A stretch of DNA of 11,072 nucleotides from NCBI GenBank assembly GCA_002449595.1, contig DJXE01000035.1, forward strand, positions 1 to 11,072, in the 5' to 3' direction. Below are positions 2,301-8,922 of the stretch, piece after piece. Source of the stretch: Lachnospiraceae bacterium UBA7012. GTDB taxonomy: Bacteria; Bacillota; Clostridia; Lachnospirales; Lachnospiraceae. The notes under the pieces were generated by a model. It was not told where the DNA came from. It saw only the letters and a program-made list of their open reading frames with translations, and made no database searches. The position numbers and the translations under genes were made by a program. Position 1 is the first letter of the stretch; each line of letters opens with the position of its first letter.

Positions 2301-4169
2301 TCAGTTTGACTGTTTCGTCAGGATCGCGATGCCGCGCGGCGGTAACGTGATCACGCCGTTTTCAAATGTGACCGGTTCCTCCGAGACGGTGAGCATTGCC
2401 GCTAGATTAGTGAAATCTCCGATTGCGTCCGCAGCAGACAGATCGATCTGCCGCTCCTCCTCGGATGTACTGAATATGATGAGCACGGGGTCCATCTCTT
2501 CTGCTTTGCCGGTTCCTTCCGTGGCGGTCCCTTCTGCACCAGTTCCTTCCGCGCCAGTCTCTTCCGCGGTGCGCAGGAACGCTCCGACGTCCTCGCTCGA
2601 AAGCTCATCCAGCGGCTGCGTTTTTCCGCATGCAATCGCAGGGAAAGCACCTCTGACTCTAATCGCATTTCTGAAATAGTTCAAGATGGAGTTCGGGTCC
2701 CCGTCCTGCTGTGCGACGGATCCGAATTTCACTGCCTGCGGCTCCATGTCCGGCGGGCCGGCGCAGACATTGATGCCTTGCGGCAAGTCTTTTCCTGCTT
2801 CTGCGGAAGTGCCGTCTGTCCATGGCATCGGCGCGCGCTTGTTTTCGTCCTTGCCTGAGCCCTTCATGCCGAGCTCTTCGCCGTAATAGAGGAAGGCGCT
2901 TCCCGCCTGGAGGAGGTTCAGCGTGCCGGCGAGCTTCGTCTTCGAGCCGTCGTCGTACGCGTAGTATCCGGTGCTGCGCGCCATGTCGTGGTTCGTGTAG
3001 AACGGCGCGTTGACCGCCTGCTCCGAGAAGGAACGGTACAATTCTTCCTCGTCCCGCATGTCCTGTGCGAAGCTGGCCGCGGATCTCGCTCCCTTCACGG
3101 TCTGCGCGATCCTGCCGTCCGCGCCCGCAAATGCAAAGTCAAACAGCGAGTCGATCCCGCTCTCGTAATAGCGGGCGTAGATCTGCTGATTCTCCCACGC
3201 TTCTCCCACGAGATAGGCGTCCGGGCGGATCTCCTTCACCGTGTCATTCAGCCACGCAAGAAATTCAATATTCGCCGCATGGTCATCCGTATAGAAGGAA
3301 GTCACCGCGTCGAGGCGGAAGCCGTCCACGCCCTTATCCAGCCAGAAGCGGACGATCTCGCGGATCTTCTCCCGCACTGCTTCATTCGACAGGTCAAGAT
3401 CCGGCATGCCGGACCAGAAGCGCGCTTCGTAATAAAGATTGGTACCTTCGAGAGGCTCGTAGCCGGCCTGCTTTTCATTTGAGAAATTGTAATACGAGAT
3501 CTCCGGGCACGCCTCCGCATTTCCCTCTGCGGTGCGAAGTGCATCCGCAGCAGCCTGGAACCAGGGATGTTCCGTCGACGTGTGGTTGAGCGGCAGATCC
3601 AGGATCACCTTGACGTCCCGGGCGTGGCACGCCTCAAGGAATGCTTCCAGATCGGCCATCGTCCCATACTGCGGGTCGACGTCCATATAATCTGTCACGT
3701 CATACTTGTGGTACGTCGGCGAGGGGAAGACCGGCATCAGCCAGATGCGGCCGCAGCCGAGGTCGTCCGCCGTCTCCGGATCGCCGTCATTCACATAGTC
3801 CAGTGCCTTGATGGCACCTTGCAAGTCCCCGATCCCGTCGCCATCACTGTCCGCAAACGAGTAAACGAAGATCTCATAGCTCGTCCTGCAGCGGTCATCC
3901 GGCAGCTGCGCGGGCTGAAGCTGCGCATTCAGCGTCTCCATGGAAGCCGCCGCGCCGCTTTCGCCCGCAACACTGCTATCTTCTGCAACACCGCTTTCTC
4001 CTGCAGCACTCTCATCAGGCACAGCAGCGGCTACATTCTCACCCTGCGCATCGCTCTCACCTTGCGCATTCTTCGGCGCAGAAGAAACGCGCACGATCAT
4101 CGGAATAAGGAGAGCCGCTACTAGCAGCAATGCAACGATCAATATGATTCTCTGCCGCCATTTTCCCAT
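2301..4169 (-). CDS. Membrane-anchored extracellular GH13 alpha-amylase-type enzyme
   Basis: This 622-residue family 13 glycoside hydrolase is probably displayed outside the membrane, where it would cut alpha-glucans or maltodextrins before import. A basic N-terminus (MGKWRQR) and a hydrophobic segment at about 8-27 form a signal peptide or uncleaved anchor. There is no lipobox cysteine. An Ala/Gly/Glu/Ser-rich linker (about 31-78) follows. Catalytic motifs: DSDGDGIGD (107-115); region I DLPLNH (191-196); region II GFRLDAV (283-289) with nucleophile D287; region III VGEAW (321-325) with acid/base E323; region IV TNHD (392-395) with D395. FLYYGEELGM lies at 426-435. The C-terminal beta domain contains a repetitive insert (about 535-555). 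The start at 4169 has GGGGAG about 7 bases upstream. The 451-bp gap before it carries the 75-bp repeat array. Exo- or endo-action and exact substrate are not readable. Confidence 0.88.
   Translation of the reverse strand: MGKWRQRIILIVALLLVAALLIPMIVRVSSAPKNAQGESDAQGENVAAAVPDESAAGESGVAEDSSVAGESGAAASMETLNAQLQPAQLPDDRCRTSYEIFVYSFADSDGDGIGDLQGAIKALDYVNDGDPETADDLGCGRIWLMPVFPSPTYHKYDVTDYMDVDPQYGTMADLEAFLEACHARDVKVILDLPLNHTSTEHPWFQAAADALRTAEGNAEACPEISYYNFSNEKQAGYEPLEGTNLYYEARFWSGMPDLDLSNEAVREKIREIVRFWLDKGVDGFRLDAVTSFYTDDHAANIEFLAWLNDTVKEIRPDAYLVGEAWENQQIYARYYESGIDSLFDFAFAGADGRIAQTVKGARSAASFAQDMRDEEELYRSFSEQAVNAPFYTNHDMARSTGYYAYDDGSKTKLAGTLNLLQAGSAFLYYGEELGMKGSGKDENKRAPMPWTDGTSAEAGKDLPQGINVCAGPPDMEPQAVKFGSVAQQDGDPNSILNYFRNAIRVRGAFPAIACGKTQPLDELSSEDVGAFLRTAEETGAEGTGAEGTATEGTGKAEEMDPVLIIFSTSEEERQIDLSAADAIGDFTNLAAMLTVSEEPVTFENGVITLPPRGIAILTKQSN
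2512..2571. repeat. 15-bp x 4 in-frame minisatellite in the GH13 C-terminal domain
   Basis: Four consecutive 15-bp units on the plus strand: gttccttccgtggcg (2512-2526), gtcccttctgcacca (2527-2541), gttccttccgcgcca (2542-2556) and gtctcttccgcggtg (2557-2571). They encode a pentapeptide array of the type GT-G/A-x-E in the anchored GH13 protein, at about residues 535-555. The array interrupts the C-terminal beta domain. Confidence 0.82.
3955..4075. repeat. 18-bp repeat array encoding the hexapeptide linker of the anchored GH13
   Basis: Four 18-bp units lie at 3955-3972, 3973-3990, 3991-4008 and 4009-4026; for example ccgctttcgcccgcaaca and ccgctttctcctgcagca. After a short break come two more, 4040-4057 and 4058-4075 (caccctgcgcatcgctct, caccttgcgcattcttcg). 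They encode six-residue units such as AGESGV, AEDSSV, NAQGES and DAQGEN. The result is an acidic, Gly/Ser/Ala-rich flexible spacer between the membrane segment and the catalytic domain. Confidence 0.78.
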
Positions 4170-4620
4170 TTCATTTCTCCCCGCACACGATAATCCGACT
4201 GTTACTCTTTCCTACAAAGGCGGAATGCTACCACATCTGTACTGTTTGTAATTTCTTCTTCGCTAATCGGCAGCTGCTACGCCTTCGCGCAGAGGAGAAG
4301 TGCTACCGCATCAGCCTTTTTAGAAATTTCTTCTTCGCTATGCGGCAGCTGTTACGCCTTTCTGCAAAGGAAATAAGCTACCGCATGAGTCTTTTTAGAA
4401 ATATCTTCTTCGCTATGCGGCAGCCGTTACACCTTCTCGCAAAGGAGAAATGCTACCGCATCAGTCTTTTTAGAAATTTTCTCTTCGCTATGCGGCAGCT
4501 GTTACGCCTTTCTGCAAAGGAAAAATGCTACCGCATCAACTCTTTTGAAATTTCTTCTTCGCCATGCGGCAGCTTTTACACCTTTTTGCAAAGGAGAATT
4601 GCTACCGCATCACCTTTTTT
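4170..4620. other. 451-bp gap between GH35 and anchored GH13, mostly tandem repeats
   Basis: This gap begins 10 bases after the GH35 stop region with the 75-bp hairpin repeats (4227-4621). It ends with a 57-bp non-repetitive leader (4170-4226) that supplies the Shine-Dalgarno sequence GGGGAG (4177-4182) for the downstream GH13 gene. I see no protein gene I would defend here. Base composition is clearly more AT-rich than the flanking genes. Confidence 0.75.
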
Positions 4621-4621
4621 T
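4227..4621. repeat. 75-bp tandem repeat array, five units plus a partial sixth, forming serial hairpins
   Basis: Units begin with gctaccgcat-type words at 4227 (diverged: gctaccacat), 4302, 4377, 4452, 4527 and 4601 (partial). Unit lengths are 75, 75, 75, 75 and 74 bp. Each unit contains a run like ctttttagaaatttcttctt, then atgcggcagc, then cctttctgcaaagg. The atgcggcagc arm pairs with gctaccgcat of the next unit, giving hairpins spanning about 4265-4311, 4340-4386, 4415-4461, 4490-4536 and 4564-4610. Each has an inner CCTT(T)/(A)AAGG stem (4282-4295, 4357-4370, 4432-4445, 4507-4520, 4581-4594). In minus-strand RNA the one imperfect outer pair becomes a G-U wobble, so four hairpins have a full 10-pair outer stem. 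The first (4265) is diverged. I do not recognise a named repeat family; the layout recalls modular intergenic elements such as pneumococcal BOX. Confidence 0.9.
4564..4621 (+). terminator. Possible plus-strand intrinsic terminator at the end of the repeat array
   Basis: Read on the plus strand, the last hairpin (arms 4564-4573 and 4601-4610, inner stem 4581-4594) is followed four bases later by seven T residues (4615-4621). The other units also have a run of four or five T a few bases after the stem. On this strand the outer stem has one A-C mismatch. No plus-strand gene needs it, so its role would be to stop antisense transcription into GH35 (inference). Confidence 0.33.
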
Positions 4622-6996
4622 CAGCTGTTTATTCTAATCTCGTACAGTGTCTCCGTATGGATGCCGATGACGCGGCAGGCTTTGCCGTCGTGAAGCTCCG
4701 GAAGGTGTTCCAGGAAGACTTGTTCGTCTTGCGTGAGCGGCTCGATCTCGAGGTCGGCGTCCAGTGTCCCTGCCTTTCGCTCTGCTTCTGTCTGGATGCG
4801 GTCCGCGGCGATCTCCCAGACTTGGCCTGTGTAGAAATTGTCCGCCGCGAGCTGCTGCTCTTTCAGAAGCTTTGCAGTGTTTCCCTCATAAGAAATCATG
4901 AGCATCGTACGAATGGCACGAACCGGCTTATCTGCATCAATGCCGCCTAAGAGGTGCTCTGTGGTCGTGCCGCTTGATAGCCGCTCAGAAGTCTCGTTGC
5001 TTGAGAGTTGCTCTGCAGCCGCCGCGGCAGCATCACTTGTGAGCCGCTCCGCGCGCAGCTTCCAGCAGCCGTCTTTCTTCGCGTCGCGGATGAGGTCCGC
5101 GGAAGCGCGGTTCGTCAGCGTCTCGTTCAGGATGTATTCCGTGAAGCCGCCGGCGCCGCCCGACACGCGGGAAAAACCTTCCGGCACTGCATCAAGATCC
5201 GGGAAGATGCGGAATGACACTTCCGCCTCGGAACGAACGGATTGAAGGAGTGTGAGATTTCCATCCGCGTCTGTCACGGCGTCAGCCGTACTGATCACAA
5301 GATGCTCCTTGCCGCTAACAACAATCTTGGCCGCGTGCAGCGCCTCTTCTTCCGAGAGCGTGAGGAACCTGGCGGCGCCCCGTTCCATCCGATACTCCGG
5401 GTCCTTGCCATCTAAAGTGTAGAAGACAAATACGTCCCTCGCTCCAGTGGCGGTTTTCCCGACGGCATTATCTCCTGTGACGTTTTCAACAGTACTATTT
5501 TGTACAGGTTCATCACCAGCCGCGCCGTGCAGGATGCACAGCGGAACCGCGCAGGCAGACGCGAGCACAGCTTCGCCAAGCGGCAGATGGAACGGCCAGA
5601 AGAAGCAGTCGCCGTCCTGGACATCATGCCTACCGAAGTCCGCAGCGACCCGAAGGCCAGACACCCCCTCCGGCACATAAGCACACAGCTGCGCCTCCGG
5701 ATGCGCAGCCATCGCGCAGCGGCGCACATAATTATTTACAAAGAAGAATCCCGCCCCCGACGCCGGATCAAACCGCACCGCAGTGCGCAGGCTCGTCAGG
5801 TCGTCCGCGTCCGCCGCGTTGCCCGGCTGGGGAACGTATGTCGTCCGGCAGAGGACGTCTTCATAATCGTGAACGAACGTCGCCAGCATGCGGACTCTTC
5901 TCCAGGTGTCCGTGAGCTGTCCGTACTCCCTGACCGGCGCGTTGAAGTCATACGATTTCACCGGCAGGTCGTTCGGGTAGCCGGTCTCCCGGGATTCCTG
6001 CAGCGTTGTCAGCTTGCCTTCCGGGTTGGTCCCGCCGTGGTACATGTAGTAGCCGAGCAGGTTGCAGCCGCTTCCGAGTTTCACTGCGGACATCGCGGCG
6101 ATGTCACGAGCAGTCGCGACCGGCCGGCGGTGTCTCGTCACCTGGAGGCCTCCGCCGAGCTCCGCGGTCAGGTAAGGAAACTTCGTCATGTCGAAGGTGA
6201 TCCCCTCCCCGAGGCCGTAATCGGAGCCGATCCCGTGGTCGTTCCGCTCCATCGTGAAGACGTAGTTCGCGCTCGGCTCGATCGGCGTCGTCCTCGGATC
6301 CCAAGGTGCCTCGCAATAGCCTCCCATCACCGGGAGCATGCCGCCCGTCACGGCGCCGCCCCATCCGGTCGCGGTCCACAGCGGCGCGGAAAAGCCGATC
6401 TCCTCCGCCATCGCGCGGAGCGTCCGCATGTGCTGTTCGCCCGCCTCTCCGGTCTGGCCGCCGCAGTGGCCGTACTCATTTTCAACCTGAATTCCGATGA
6501 TCGGCCTGACTGGCTCATCACCGTTACCTTCCGCAAAGAAGAAGCCTTGGGCCTGTTCAAAGACCTTTTCATAAAATCTTCTTACATAGCGCAGGTAGGT
6601 GGGATCGTCGCTCCTTAGCTGCGAGATCTCCCCGCTCTGTTCCTTCTGCATCAGCCAGTCCGGGAATCCGCCGTTCCTGACCTCTCCGTGGACCCACGGC
6701 CCGATCCGCAGGAAGCACTTCAGGCCGCACTTCTGAACCAGCGCAAGAAAAGCGCGCAGATCTCTCTGCCCGCTGAAATCAAAAACGCCTTCCTCTTCCT
6801 CGTGATGGATCCAGATCGTGTAGGCGGACACCACGTCCACGCCGCCCGCCTTCATCCTGCACAGTTCTCTCTCCCAGTCCTGCCGCGCGACCCGGCTGTA
6901 ATGGATCTCGCCCATGACCGGGAACCACGGCTCTCCGTCGACGGTGAGATACTGCGGCGTAAAGCCGATGACACTGCTGTTTCTGATCCTGTTCAT
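4621..6996 (-). CDS. Cytoplasmic GH35 beta-galactosidase
   Basis: This 791-residue family 35 glycoside hydrolase probably removes terminal beta-galactose from imported oligosaccharides. There is no signal peptide. The N-terminal TIM barrel (about 10-390) carries family hallmarks: VMGEIHYSR (27-35), FLRIGPWVHGEVRNGGFPDW (95-114), and IQVENEYG (169-176) with acid/base E174. TAELGGG (277-283) has E279 as the likely nucleophile, and YYMYHGGTNP (316-325) follows. The remaining about 400 residues are a beta-rich C-terminal part with two low-complexity inserts. The open frame runs upstream to 7254, but that part overlaps the regulator gene and has no family similarity. ATG at 6996 gives a natural N-terminus, with GAGAGGG upstream at a rather long spacing (about 13). 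It starts 32 bp after the regulator stop, so the two are probably co-transcribed. Galactosidase versus a related exo-beta-activity is not proven. Confidence 0.88.
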   Translation of the reverse strand: MNRIRNSSVIGFTPQYLTVDGEPWFPVMGEIHYSRVARQDWERELCRMKAGGVDVVSAYTIWIHHEEEEGVFDFSGQRDLRAFLALVQKCGLKCFLRIGPWVHGEVRNGGFPDWLMQKEQSGEISQLRSDDPTYLRYVRRFYEKVFEQAQGFFFAEGNGDEPVRPIIGIQVENEYGHCGGQTGEAGEQHMRTLRAMAEEIGFSAPLWTATGWGGAVTGGMLPVMGGYCEAPWDPRTTPIEPSANYVFTMERNDHGIGSDYGLGEGITFDMTKFPYLTAELGGGLQVTRHRRPVATARDIAAMSAVKLGSGCNLLGYYMYHGGTNPEGKLTTLQESRETGYPNDLPVKSYDFNAPVREYGQLTDTWRRVRMLATFVHDYEDVLCRTTYVPQPGNAADADDLTSLRTAVRFDPASGAGFFFVNNYVRRCAMAAHPEAQLCAYVPEGVSGLRVAADFGRHDVQDGDCFFWPFHLPLGEAVLASACAVPLCILHGAAGDEPVQNSTVENVTGDNAVGKTATGARDVFVFYTLDGKDPEYRMERGAARFLTLSEEEALHAAKIVVSGKEHLVISTADAVTDADGNLTLLQSVRSEAEVSFRIFPDLDAVPEGFSRVSGGAGGFTEYILNETLTNRASADLIRDAKKDGCWKLRAERLTSDAAAAAAEQLSSNETSERLSSGTTTEHLLGGIDADKPVRAIRTMLMISYEGNTAKLLKEQQLAADNFYTGQVWEIAADRIQTEAERKAGTLDADLEIEPLTQDEQVFLEHLPELHDGKACRVIGIHTETLYEIRINS
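4951..5013. repeat. 27-bp in-frame repeat in the GH35 C-terminal part
   Basis: Two full 27-bp units (4987-5013 and 4960-4986) and the start of a third (4951-4959) encode EQLSSNETS, ERLSSGTTT and EHL, following a run of Ala codons. The insert is Ser/Thr/Glu-rich and lies far from the catalytic barrel. It looks like a surface loop grown by duplication. Confidence 0.65.
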
Positions 6997-7028
6997 GCTG
7001 CTGTTTTTTCCCTCTCCAATGTGTTTCT

Positions 7029-8024
7029 CTATGACGTGCTCTCCCGCAGGATCACCTGGTAATTGCGGATCACGACGCCTTCCGGCTGCGCGCCGGCGAT
7101 CACTTCGAGGAGCTTCTCTCCCGCCGCGGCGCCAAGCCTGCGGTCGTCGATGTCCAGTGCGGTGACCGCGGGCGACGAATTGGCCAGGAATGAGCTGTTG
7201 TAGAACGAGGCGAGCCGCAGCTGCTCCGGGATGCGGATGTGCCGGATGCGGCACTCGCTCATGACCATTCCGGTCAGCTTTTCATCCATGCAGACCAGCA
7301 CGTCCACGCCCTTCTTCATGACGTCCGTTAGCACTTGCGCGGCGTGCGGGTGGTCCTCGACGCCCATGTAGATCAGGTCCGCGTCCGGCTTCAGCCCGGC
7401 CTGCTTGTAGGCCAGCTCGAAGCCGCGCCGGCGCGTCTCCGTGATGATGTGCGTGCCGTCACCGCCGAGCAGCGCCATCCGCCGGTAGCCCTTCGCGAGC
7501 AGGACCGAAGTCAGCTCGCTGCAGGCCGCGAGGTGGTCGTTGTCGATCTGGATCAGCTCCTTGTCCGGGCTGCTGCCAATGACGACGAAAGGCATGCCGC
7601 TCTGCTTGAGGTACTCGGCCGCCTTGTCGTCAAAGAGCGTCCTGGTCAGGATCACGCCGTCGACCTTGTGGTTTTCGACGAGCCGACGGAGGTTGTCGAC
7701 GTCGCTGCGCCCGATCATGGACATCAGGATGTCGTACCCCCGCGGCGTGATGCTGTCGCTGATCCCCTGCAGGCAGCGGTGGAAATACCGGAGGTCAAAG
7801 ATCTCATAGTCGATCGGACACACGACCCCGATATTGTACGTCTTGCTCTGCGCGAGTCCCTGCGCGACAGCGTTCGGTTTGTAGTTGTATTTCTCGATGT
7901 ACTGCCGGACGCGCTCCGTCGTTGCCGGCGAGATCCGCCCTTTGCCCGAAATGGCGCGGGAGACCGTCGACTTCGACATGCCGAGCGCCTCGGCAATATC
8001 ATCGATGGTTATCTTTCCACTCAT
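7029..8024 (-). CDS. LacI/GalR-family transcriptional regulator
   Basis: This 331-residue DNA-binding sugar-responsive regulator probably represses the cluster until a pathway sugar binds. The N-terminal helix-turn-helix is clear: ITIDDIAEALGMSKSTVSRA (5-24), with recognition helix residues S17, K18, S19. The hinge (about 50-62, PNAVAQGLAQSKT) has L57 where family members insert a leucine into the minor groove. The rest is a periplasmic-binding-protein-like sensor domain starting at YNIGVVCP (63-70), and the length is normal for the family. The start at 8024 lies 22 bp after the malG-like stop and has only a weak ribosome binding site (GGAACAAT), so translational coupling is likely. Its place between importer and hydrolase genes suggests local control. 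I found no clear palindromic operator in the window; it may lie upstream of the binding-protein gene, outside it. Confidence 0.92.
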   Translation of the reverse strand: MSGKITIDDIAEALGMSKSTVSRAISGKGRISPATTERVRQYIEKYNYKPNAVAQGLAQSKTYNIGVVCPIDYEIFDLRYFHRCLQGISDSITPRGYDILMSMIGRSDVDNLRRLVENHKVDGVILTRTLFDDKAAEYLKQSGMPFVVIGSSPDKELIQIDNDHLAACSELTSVLLAKGYRRMALLGGDGTHIITETRRRGFELAYKQAGLKPDADLIYMGVEDHPHAAQVLTDVMKKGVDVLVCMDEKLTGMVMSECRIRHIRIPEQLRLASFYNSSFLANSSPAVTALDIDDRRLGAAAGEKLLEVIAGAQPEGVVIRNYQVILRESTS

Positions 8025-8046
8025 ATTGTTCCAGATGTTTCAGGTA

Positions 8047-8922
8047 TCAGCCTTTGACCGCGCCGCCGGTGACGCCTTCCACGTAGTATTTCTGCAGGCA
8101 CATGAAAAGGATCGTGACCGGAATCGCGACCAGAATGCCGCCCGCGCAGAATCTTGTGAAGTATCCCTGGTAGTCGTTGGTCCAGACCCAGCGCGTCATC
8201 GCGACCGCGACGTTATAGCTCTTGTCATGGCCGAACGCGACGTACGACGCGAAGATGTAGTCGCACCAGGGTGCCATGAACGCAACGAGTGCCGTATAAA
8301 TGACGATCGGCTTGGAGAGCGGGATGATCATCTGTACGAAGATCTGCGCCCTCGTCGCGCCGTCGATCCTTGCCGCCTCATCCAGCGCCTTCGGGATCGT
8401 GTCGAAATAACCTTTGCAGACGTAATAGCCCATGCCGCAGCTCGCGATGTAGACGAGGATCAGGCCGGGCACCGCGCCCGCCTGCGTGAGGCCGAACTGC
8501 TTGAGCAGGAAATACATGCAGATCATGGTCAGGAATCCGGGGAACATGCCGAGGATCAGCCAGAACCGCATGAGCAGCTCCCTGCCCCTGAAGCGCATCC
8601 TGGAGAGCGCGTAGCTCACGCACAGGACGATGACCGTCTGCAGGATCGCGACGACGATCGCGATGAGGACCGTGTTGCCGTACCACTTCAGGAAGTTGGT
8701 CTCCCCGGAGAACAGGAACCTGTAGTTATCCAGGGAAAAGCGTTTCGGAATGATATAGTCGACCATGCCGCCGTACTCGGACGAATAAGAGCGGAAGCTC
8801 TGCATGATCAGCCCGAAGAACGGGAACAGCCAGACGATGCTGATGAGGATCAGCAGCAGATAGGCGAAGAAGTTCCCGATCGCGCGCTTGCGTGACATGG
8901 ATGCGTAATTCTTCTCTTTCAT
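8047..8922 (-). CDS. malG: MalG-type sugar ABC transporter permease
   Basis: This is the second membrane subunit of a type I carbohydrate importer, 291 residues. Hydrophobic segments at about 17-38, 83-106, 117-140, 150-169, 205-227 and 258-277 give the expected six helices. The cytoplasmic EAA loop, EAARIDGATRAQIFVQMIIP (182-201), contacts the ATPase. The C-terminus is the usual short KYYVEG-type tail of MalG proteins. I chose ATG at 8922, which overlaps the stop of the upstream permease as TGATG. A GTG one codon earlier (8925) sits slightly better relative to the AGGAGGG site. The overlap implies strict co-translation with the malF-like gene. No ATPase gene is present, so a shared MsmX/MalK-type ATPase elsewhere is expected. 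Related importers also carry galacto-oligosaccharides (GanQ-type), so maltose specificity is not proven. Confidence 0.88.
   Translation of the reverse strand: MKEKNYASMSRKRAIGNFFAYLLLILISIVWLFPFFGLIMQSFRSYSSEYGGMVDYIIPKRFSLDNYRFLFSGETNFLKWYGNTVLIAIVVAILQTVIVLCVSYALSRMRFRGRELLMRFWLILGMFPGFLTMICMYFLLKQFGLTQAGAVPGLILVYIASCGMGYYVCKGYFDTIPKALDEAARIDGATRAQIFVQMIIPLSKPIVIYTALVAFMAPWCDYIFASYVAFGHDKSYNVAVAMTRWVWTNDYQGYFTRFCAGGILVAIPVTILFMCLQKYYVEGVTGGAVKG

Follow-up and report, generated by a model that had tools for sequence, protein, structure and literature searches.

A two-box tandem repeat between GH35 and GH13 genes of a Lachnospiraceae genome, probably one locus of a dispersed non-coding minisatellite

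The tandem array that fills the GH35-GH13 gap on the minus strand of the window (the whole stretch of 11,072 nucleotides analysed here, from Lachnospiraceae bacterium UBA7012) is probably one locus of a dispersed, non-coding, intergenic minisatellite of the MIRU-like kind, with a rigid two-box B-A core and, so far as searched, confined to its own genome. The family is dispersed, has grown in tandem on a B-A core and is absent from the relatives searched; in the window it widens an otherwise tight gene pair, and four of its units form hairpins in the sense strand. The assembly of this genome is 63% complete, and the family is known from this one genome.

Tandem Repeats Finder, run on the window, recovered the array with 5.6 copies and 82% matches, confirming that a 75-bp tandem array between the two genes, as first proposed from the sequence, is real (see the table). 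Every unit begins with GATGCGGTAGC on the minus strand, and a pattern derived from the unit matched four times in the window, as compared to none in 200 dinucleotide shuffles. The original prediction counted five units of 75/75/75/75/74 bp and a partial sixth; the period of about 75 holds, and there are six box-A units with box A to box A steps of 74/75/75/75/75 bp. Its distance of about 10 bases from the GH35 stop was right as to adjacency, but the array begins directly behind the stop codon and the first box A lies at 4609. Unit 1 carries GGCGAA in place of the box B sequence AGCGAA, and unit 6, the last, reaches into the ribosome-binding region of the GH13 gene. Elsewhere in the window, Tandem Repeats Finder reported a 16-bp tandem repeat between two GH13 genes (2204-2278; 4.7 copies at 69%).

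Table. Features of the window array and its flanking genes (window coordinates)
Feature	Position	Strand	Support or remark
GH35 gene, upstream; stop codon 4621-4623	4621..7092	-	Pfam PF01301
GH13 (alpha-amylase family) gene, downstream; start codon uncertain	2301..4169	-	Pfam PF00128
Tandem array, period 75 (one step 74), six box-A units	4199..4619	-	Tandem Repeats Finder
Box A of unit 1 (TGCGGTAGCA)	4600..4609	-	
Remaining box A starts, running down	4535, 4460, 4385, 4310, 4235	-	
Box B of unit 2 (AGCGAA)	4484..4489	-	
Exact box A + box B pairs, spans	4484-4535, 4409-4460, 4334-4385, 4259-4310	-	
Unit 1 predicted hairpin; 10-bp outer stem including box A, inner CCUUU stem	4564..4610	-	fold z -3.39
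Unit 2 predicted hairpin	4490..4536	-	fold z -3.18
Unit 3 predicted hairpin	4415..4461	-	fold z -3.43
Unit 4 predicted hairpin	4340..4386	-	fold z -3.38
Unit 5 region, altered 3' arm, weak fold	4253..4312	-	fold z -0.37; 65 of 200 shuffles as good
Unit 6, diverged, without such a hairpin	4170..4237	-	fold z +1.44; worse than 190 of 200 shuffles

The minus strand of the window carries six full-length genes (two GH13, GH35, a LacI-type regulator and two permeases) and two partial genes, for a solute-binding protein and diaminopimelate dehydrogenase. The GH35-GH13 gap is 451 nt here, taking 4169 as the GH13 start, where a codon model favours 3941. In six of the seven relatives measured the gap is 42 nt or less: to the nearest start it is 0 in G017, 21 in G020, 24 in G057, 27 in G048 and 42 in G016, and in G012 it is 17, or -25 as an overlap. 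These values suggest that the window copy may have widened a formerly tight junction; against this reading, the gap of the seventh relative, G015, reaches 199 nt without needing an array. G043 yielded no GH35-GH13 pair in this comparison. The GH13 homologues of G015, G037, G048, G043 and G005 (L053, L056, L058, L059 and L063) each had one stop inside the match. A stretch of 3,291 bases in another genome (G042:C58, L104) was 99.3% identical to window positions 5570-8860, without reaching into the array; since the best GH13 of G042 is 60% identical, this is probably a misplaced contig.

The sequence ATGCGGTAGCA was found 57 times in the own genome, as compared to twice for its reversed control, and alignment of the matches revealed two boxes and exact 75-bp steps. 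The two-box pattern TGCGGTAGC-N34..38-AGCGAA gave 56 matches in this genome, all with a 37-nt gap even though 34 to 38 were allowed. Over 649,227 bases of the own genome, the starts of A and B were 46 nt apart in all 56 pairs closer than 120 nt, box B was followed by the next box A after 29 nt (64 cases), 28 nt (7) or one of four other values (once each), and consecutive A boxes were 75 (63) or 74 nt (7) apart, apart from 20 steps of 52-54 nt that come from another family. The module thus consists of box B (AGCGAA), 22-23 nt and box A (TGCGGTAGCA), with a 37-nt gap from A to the following B and a period of 75, in some cases 74. In 16 of the 17 loci checked, the first box A is preceded at 28-29 nt by a box B with no more than one change, and no box A lies one period earlier (three or more changes in 9); the window array alone lacks such a box B. 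Behind the last box A, 14 of the 17 loci show no further box B (two or more changes); among the other three, C4(-) and C6 run off the contig and C12(-) has a box B after its last box A. Because B precedes the first A and is mostly missing after the last, the arrays can be described as B-A modules in series, with a 37-nt gap between one and the next. Lone B-A modules occur at C84, C50 and C79, C12(-) reads B-A-B, and a further site near the end of C12, found by reading, has A (one change), 37 nt and B. A similar sequence, ATTACGG(T/A)CTAAAT, follows both the lone modules L107:14918 (C84) and L161:3479 (C50). The original prediction had set conserved arms against more variable spacers; what is conserved genome-wide is the two short boxes, which it had left merged with the rest of the unit.

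Thirteen tandem arrays of 2 to 14 box-A units were located on 11 contigs (C4 with two, C6, C12, C62, C86 with two, C88, C95, C109, C130, C134 and C177; the C62 array contains a run of N), together with at least five smaller sites. The second array on the window's own contig (L103, G000:C86) lies beyond the window at 14240-14735 (a tandem-repeat call places it at 14310-14727), has a period of 75/150, carries ATGCGGTAGCA and runs opposite to both neighbouring genes, and in it two unit types, I and II, alternate, as they do in several arrays. These types were assigned with two hand-set consensus strings. From 93 rows we dropped 12 (C8, C79, C124, C182, the chance row C86:18131 and four short or N-holding units), leaving 81, of which 71 have a box B of at most two changes: 26 are type I, 27 are type II and 18 are other, five of these from the window; C4:358 and C12:3807 were sorted among the 71 without a proper box A. 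A rough codon model called genes over the arrays in none of the 16 examined. By the same model, the window array, C62, C12(-) and C134 run in the direction of both neighbours, C86b and C12(+) run against both, and the remaining arrays have a mixed arrangement or lie at the end of a contig; a cruder gene model differed on some of the array neighbours.

The sequences between the boxes vary from array to array. When A-B spacers were compared between groups, the observed identity was reached by 2 of 500 column shuffles for window-II and for window-C88, 4 for II-C88, 12 for II-C177, 22 for window-C177, 32 for I-II, and 74 to 125 for the other four pairs; for B-A spacers the figures were 0 for I-II, 5 for C88-C177 and 136 to 429 for the other eight. 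These shuffles suggest that some arrays still bear signs of shared ancestry, having gained or lost hardly any bases, and that other arrays bear no such signs.

Such a constant A-B distance could also point to a protein-binding DNA array, in which a factor would contact boxes A and B on one helix face, in chromosome structure or regulation, and the tandem form would allow cooperativity. The span from the start of A to the end of B, 52 bp, is about five helical turns; the A-B distance is the same in 56 of 56 pairs, although between types most spacers are about as alike as chance would make them; the arrays occur in both orientations; and another family of this genome repeats box A at 52-54-bp steps. 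That other family comprises the tandem arrays L169:9297-9757 (C182) and L165:6570-6843 (C124), in which box A occurs together with CAACCGCA or CTACCGCA and no box B occurs at the family distance. The full 75-bp period, by contrast, does not amount to complete turns of 10.5 bp each, and common ancestry accounts for part of the A-B constancy, because the window/type II and window/C88 spacers are more alike than in 498 of 500 column shuffles. We consider a binding array unlikely, as judged from sequence.

The refuting outcome named at the start, a unit that occurs only here and is a chance local duplication without wider meaning, is partly borne out for the full 75-bp unit, of which the own genome contains no other close copy, but not for the boxes and their spacing, which recur genome-wide. 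In blastn against the own genome, the window array gave seven rows at E<=1, two of which are the array itself and five of which are weak, and two of these five fall within other arrays of the family (C95 and C88). The covariance model built from the copies (R1), a check that had been proposed, went part of the way: in the own genome it recovered the six window units plus two weak rows (E 4.6 and 9.6), which are family sites on contig C12, and over the genus it gave one weak row elsewhere (G055, E 0.07). The 56 two-box pairs across the own genome refute the 'only here' form of this explanation, and a chance duplication is left with very little probability. Of the functions first listed, the miniature repeat family was right in substance, as 13 arrays of this genome share the two boxes at the same spacing.

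Searches beyond the own genome returned little. The window array gave short blastn matches in 3 of 145 other relatives (E 0.006-0.009); within the genus, 60 of 62 genomes showed some match at E<=5, the best outside the own array having E 0.00996 over 22 nt. None of the other 61 genomes of the genus matched the two-box pattern with gaps of 34-38. When gaps of 35-39 were allowed and the search took in 397 genomes drawn from the taxonomic family (the own genome included), single matches appeared in 8 of the 396 others, at nine sites with lengths of 50, 53 or 54 and never 52, similar to the reversed control with seven matches in six other genomes. A search of plasmids gave no match. The exact-arm pattern hit 17 stretches in genome_contigs and one in viral_contigs, none with the inner CCTTT/AAGG stem, and the two-box pattern with gaps of 36-38 hit at least 120 stretches of viral contigs, with one match each among the 80 listed; both sets were taken as chance. 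The literature searched listed no comparable family from Clostridia or Lachnospiraceae, which is no proof of its absence from print.

A period of 75 would also suit protein-coding repeats of 25 residues (DAVA...SEYF), decayed at some loci. The frame beginning GAT GCG GTA GCA is open in several arrays, and the 14 units at C134 give 378 codons; over types I and II it has, among plus-strand frames, the lowest number of stops (8 in 53 units) and the highest synonymous share, and the 378-codon product passes the Pfam cut-off for FAS_N with a whole-protein E of 2.2e-10, no single stretch of it passing. A third-position excess is typical of genes. The differences at codon positions 1/2/3, 1873/1423/1943 in type I and 2376/3144/3035 in type II, have no such excess, and the per-codon score of the frame is -0.143, as compared to 0.333, 0.444 and 0.476 for three neighbouring genes. 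Stops interrupt the arrays of C86 (the window included), C88, C177 and C109, steps of 74 bp occur, which argues against a coding repeat, and none of 1031 candidates was a homologue of the frame product at E<=0.001. On the codon positions, the codon score, the stops and the lack of homologues, we reject the coding repeat, which is hardly credible, and the arrays are most likely non-coding.

In the window array the original prediction saw five serial stem-loops. In the predicted fold of the minus-strand RNA, units 1-4 form hairpins in which AUGCGGUAGC and GCUGCCGCAU pair around an inner CCUUU stem, but unit 5 folds weakly and unit 6 lacks such a hairpin (see the table). The proposed pairing of atgcggcagc with gctaccgcat stands on the minus strand, that of the genes, where the arms contain one U.G pair, and fails on the plus strand, where a C.A mismatch lies at the same place; for the array region as a whole the fold z is -5.22 on the minus strand, as compared to -2.48 on the plus strand. 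Selection on RNA structure, which had been suggested, finds no support here: 1 of the 19 predicted pairs in the window array has a two-sided change, the covariation term is unfavourable, and family arrays occur in both orientations relative to neighbouring genes. A scan for a series of intrinsic terminators (stem plus T run, coding strand) gave one site in 3900-4900, at 4114-4128 and outside the array, as compared to a mean of 1.3 in shuffles, and Rfam at its gathering score had no match in the window. A polarity step or protection of mRNA ends by the window array, both raised at the outset, is a plausible candidate role.

The hairpins differ across the family. In type I, 82.7% of the stem cells are paired, as compared to 39-53% in slid controls, and the covariation score was reached by 4 of 500 shuffles; because related sequences can exceed shuffles, we take this as modest support for covariation in the alignment. 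In type II, 72.4% are paired, as compared to 42-56% in slid controls, and covariation is no better than in shuffles. Mean fold z on the plus/minus strands was -2.0/-2.4 for type I, -0.9/-0.3 for type II and -0.8/-0.7 for the others. Wobble pairs gave no strand preference in type II (GU 48 plus, 46 minus) and a slight one in the stem of type I (12 plus, 6 minus). As fold and covariation differ among the types, the hairpins are a non-uniform property of the family. Rfam searches over eight other loci returned one S10-Clostridia leader (C109), away from the array; a leader of this kind points to Clostridia. The units are 75 nt long and the boxes resemble the D- and T-loops of tRNA; ARAGORN found no tRNA-like unit in 13 loci.

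Relatives may carry repeat families of their own. Tandem Repeats Finder was run on a sample of 788,764 bases (260,000 from G043, 100,000 from G042, 140,000 from G015, 220,000 from G017 and 68,764 from four more) and gave four rows in G043, five in G042, two in G017 and none in G015 or the four small samples; no such array appeared in the samples of G015, G017 and the four small ones. The congener G042 has a 62-bp array with inverted repeats (L373:9444-9975), and a query with its unit found 27 matches in G042, which by our own count make up 12 loci on 10 contigs, none in the own genome and, among the other 61, one 20-nt match (G030). This family steps by 62, or by 50 and 12 counting both arms, and is unrelated in sequence to the 75-bp family. 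A second 62-bp tandem array of G042, with a different unit, lies at L373:19528-19755 (G042:C99). In G043, 13 TGTCGA...TTCGACA palindromes stand at steps of 41 or 42 at one locus in 260,000 bases (L350:12300-12910, G043:C24). A private dispersed family is thus established for two genomes and hinted at in a third, given the 12 loci of G042 and the single locus of G043. A broader and distinctly tentative reading would take in the 75-bp B-A modules, the 62-bp palindromic units of G042 and the 41/42-bp palindromes of G043: each species of the genus might have its own fixed-pitch satellite, unrelated between species, held at exact spacing by a co-evolving trans-acting factor (a binding protein or a mobilising enzyme), with families turning over.

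For the minisatellite reading that we prefer, slippage during replication or unequal recombination would lengthen and shorten the arrays, and the B-A module itself may have moved between intergenic sites. Four strong predicted hairpins in a shared mRNA could hold back 3'-to-5' decay of its GH35 portion, and the window array may loosen GH13 expression from that of GH35. Mycobacteria supply the best-known cases of dispersed tandem families within operons. A rigid two-box family in a clostridial genome, missing from the relatives searched and found beside a congener with a different one, offers a natural test of how repeats originate, spread and replace each other, and the same genomes allow a test of whether such repeats tune operon expression.

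Among known systems, CRISPR arrays share the regular period and the alternation of conserved and variable stretches, but they hold unique spacers between near-identical repeats, whereas here the between-box stretches recur across loci as types (26 type I and 27 type II units) and the conserved parts are two short boxes. REP/BIME elements, as the available text of PMC3733652 describes them, are likewise extragenic, dispersed and hairpin-prone, in species-specific families with GTAG tags, and box A contains GTAG. On that model, the family of the window array would consist of palindromes tagged with GTAG, and a transposase of the IS200/IS605 type (RAYT) that reads box A would have spread them. 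A REP palindrome measures 20-40 bp and has GTAG unpaired at one of its ends, whereas our units are 75 bp long and share a single orientation within an array; the GTAG of box A lies within the 10-bp stem in window units 1-4 rather than at an unpaired end, and 5 nt from the stem in type I. As for a transposase behind the dispersal, the Y1 family (Y1_Tnp, PF01797; RAYT-type) had no match in the 63%-complete own genome, as compared to matches in 10 of 14 control genomes. The available text of PMC3733652 places tagged palindromes mostly in Proteobacteria and, to that extent, makes no mention of Firmicutes or Clostridi. We regard a REP/BIME-like origin as improbable.

The REP hairpins of malE resemble the window array in standing behind a gene of a sugar operon as a possible barrier to 3' decay, and MalE expression rose with a REP hairpin behind malE (cited in the available part of PMC4942690); their sequence is unrelated as far as known, and the barrier here is a predicted one. 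A further parallel is MIRU-VNTR of Mycobacterium tuberculosis, as seen in the rnc-fpg1 gap and described in the available part of PMC2734929: both place tandem arrays between genes at many loci, in some cases within operons, and fpg1 mRNA drops with shorter repeats. VNTRs are defined by copy numbers that differ between strains. The rigid two-box core with fixed spacing is a feature of the family described here, and the likeness that we claim is one of kind rather than of sequence. In both systems the repeat belongs to one lineage and occupies a gap that is otherwise short, namely 358 bp in M. tuberculosis, 303 in M. bovis and 279 in M. microti as compared to 54 or less elsewhere (PMC2734929, same part), and 451 nt here as compared to 42 or less in six of seven relatives; and, as in MIRU, tandem units of tens of base pairs recur here at many intergenic loci, in 13 arrays on 11 contigs.
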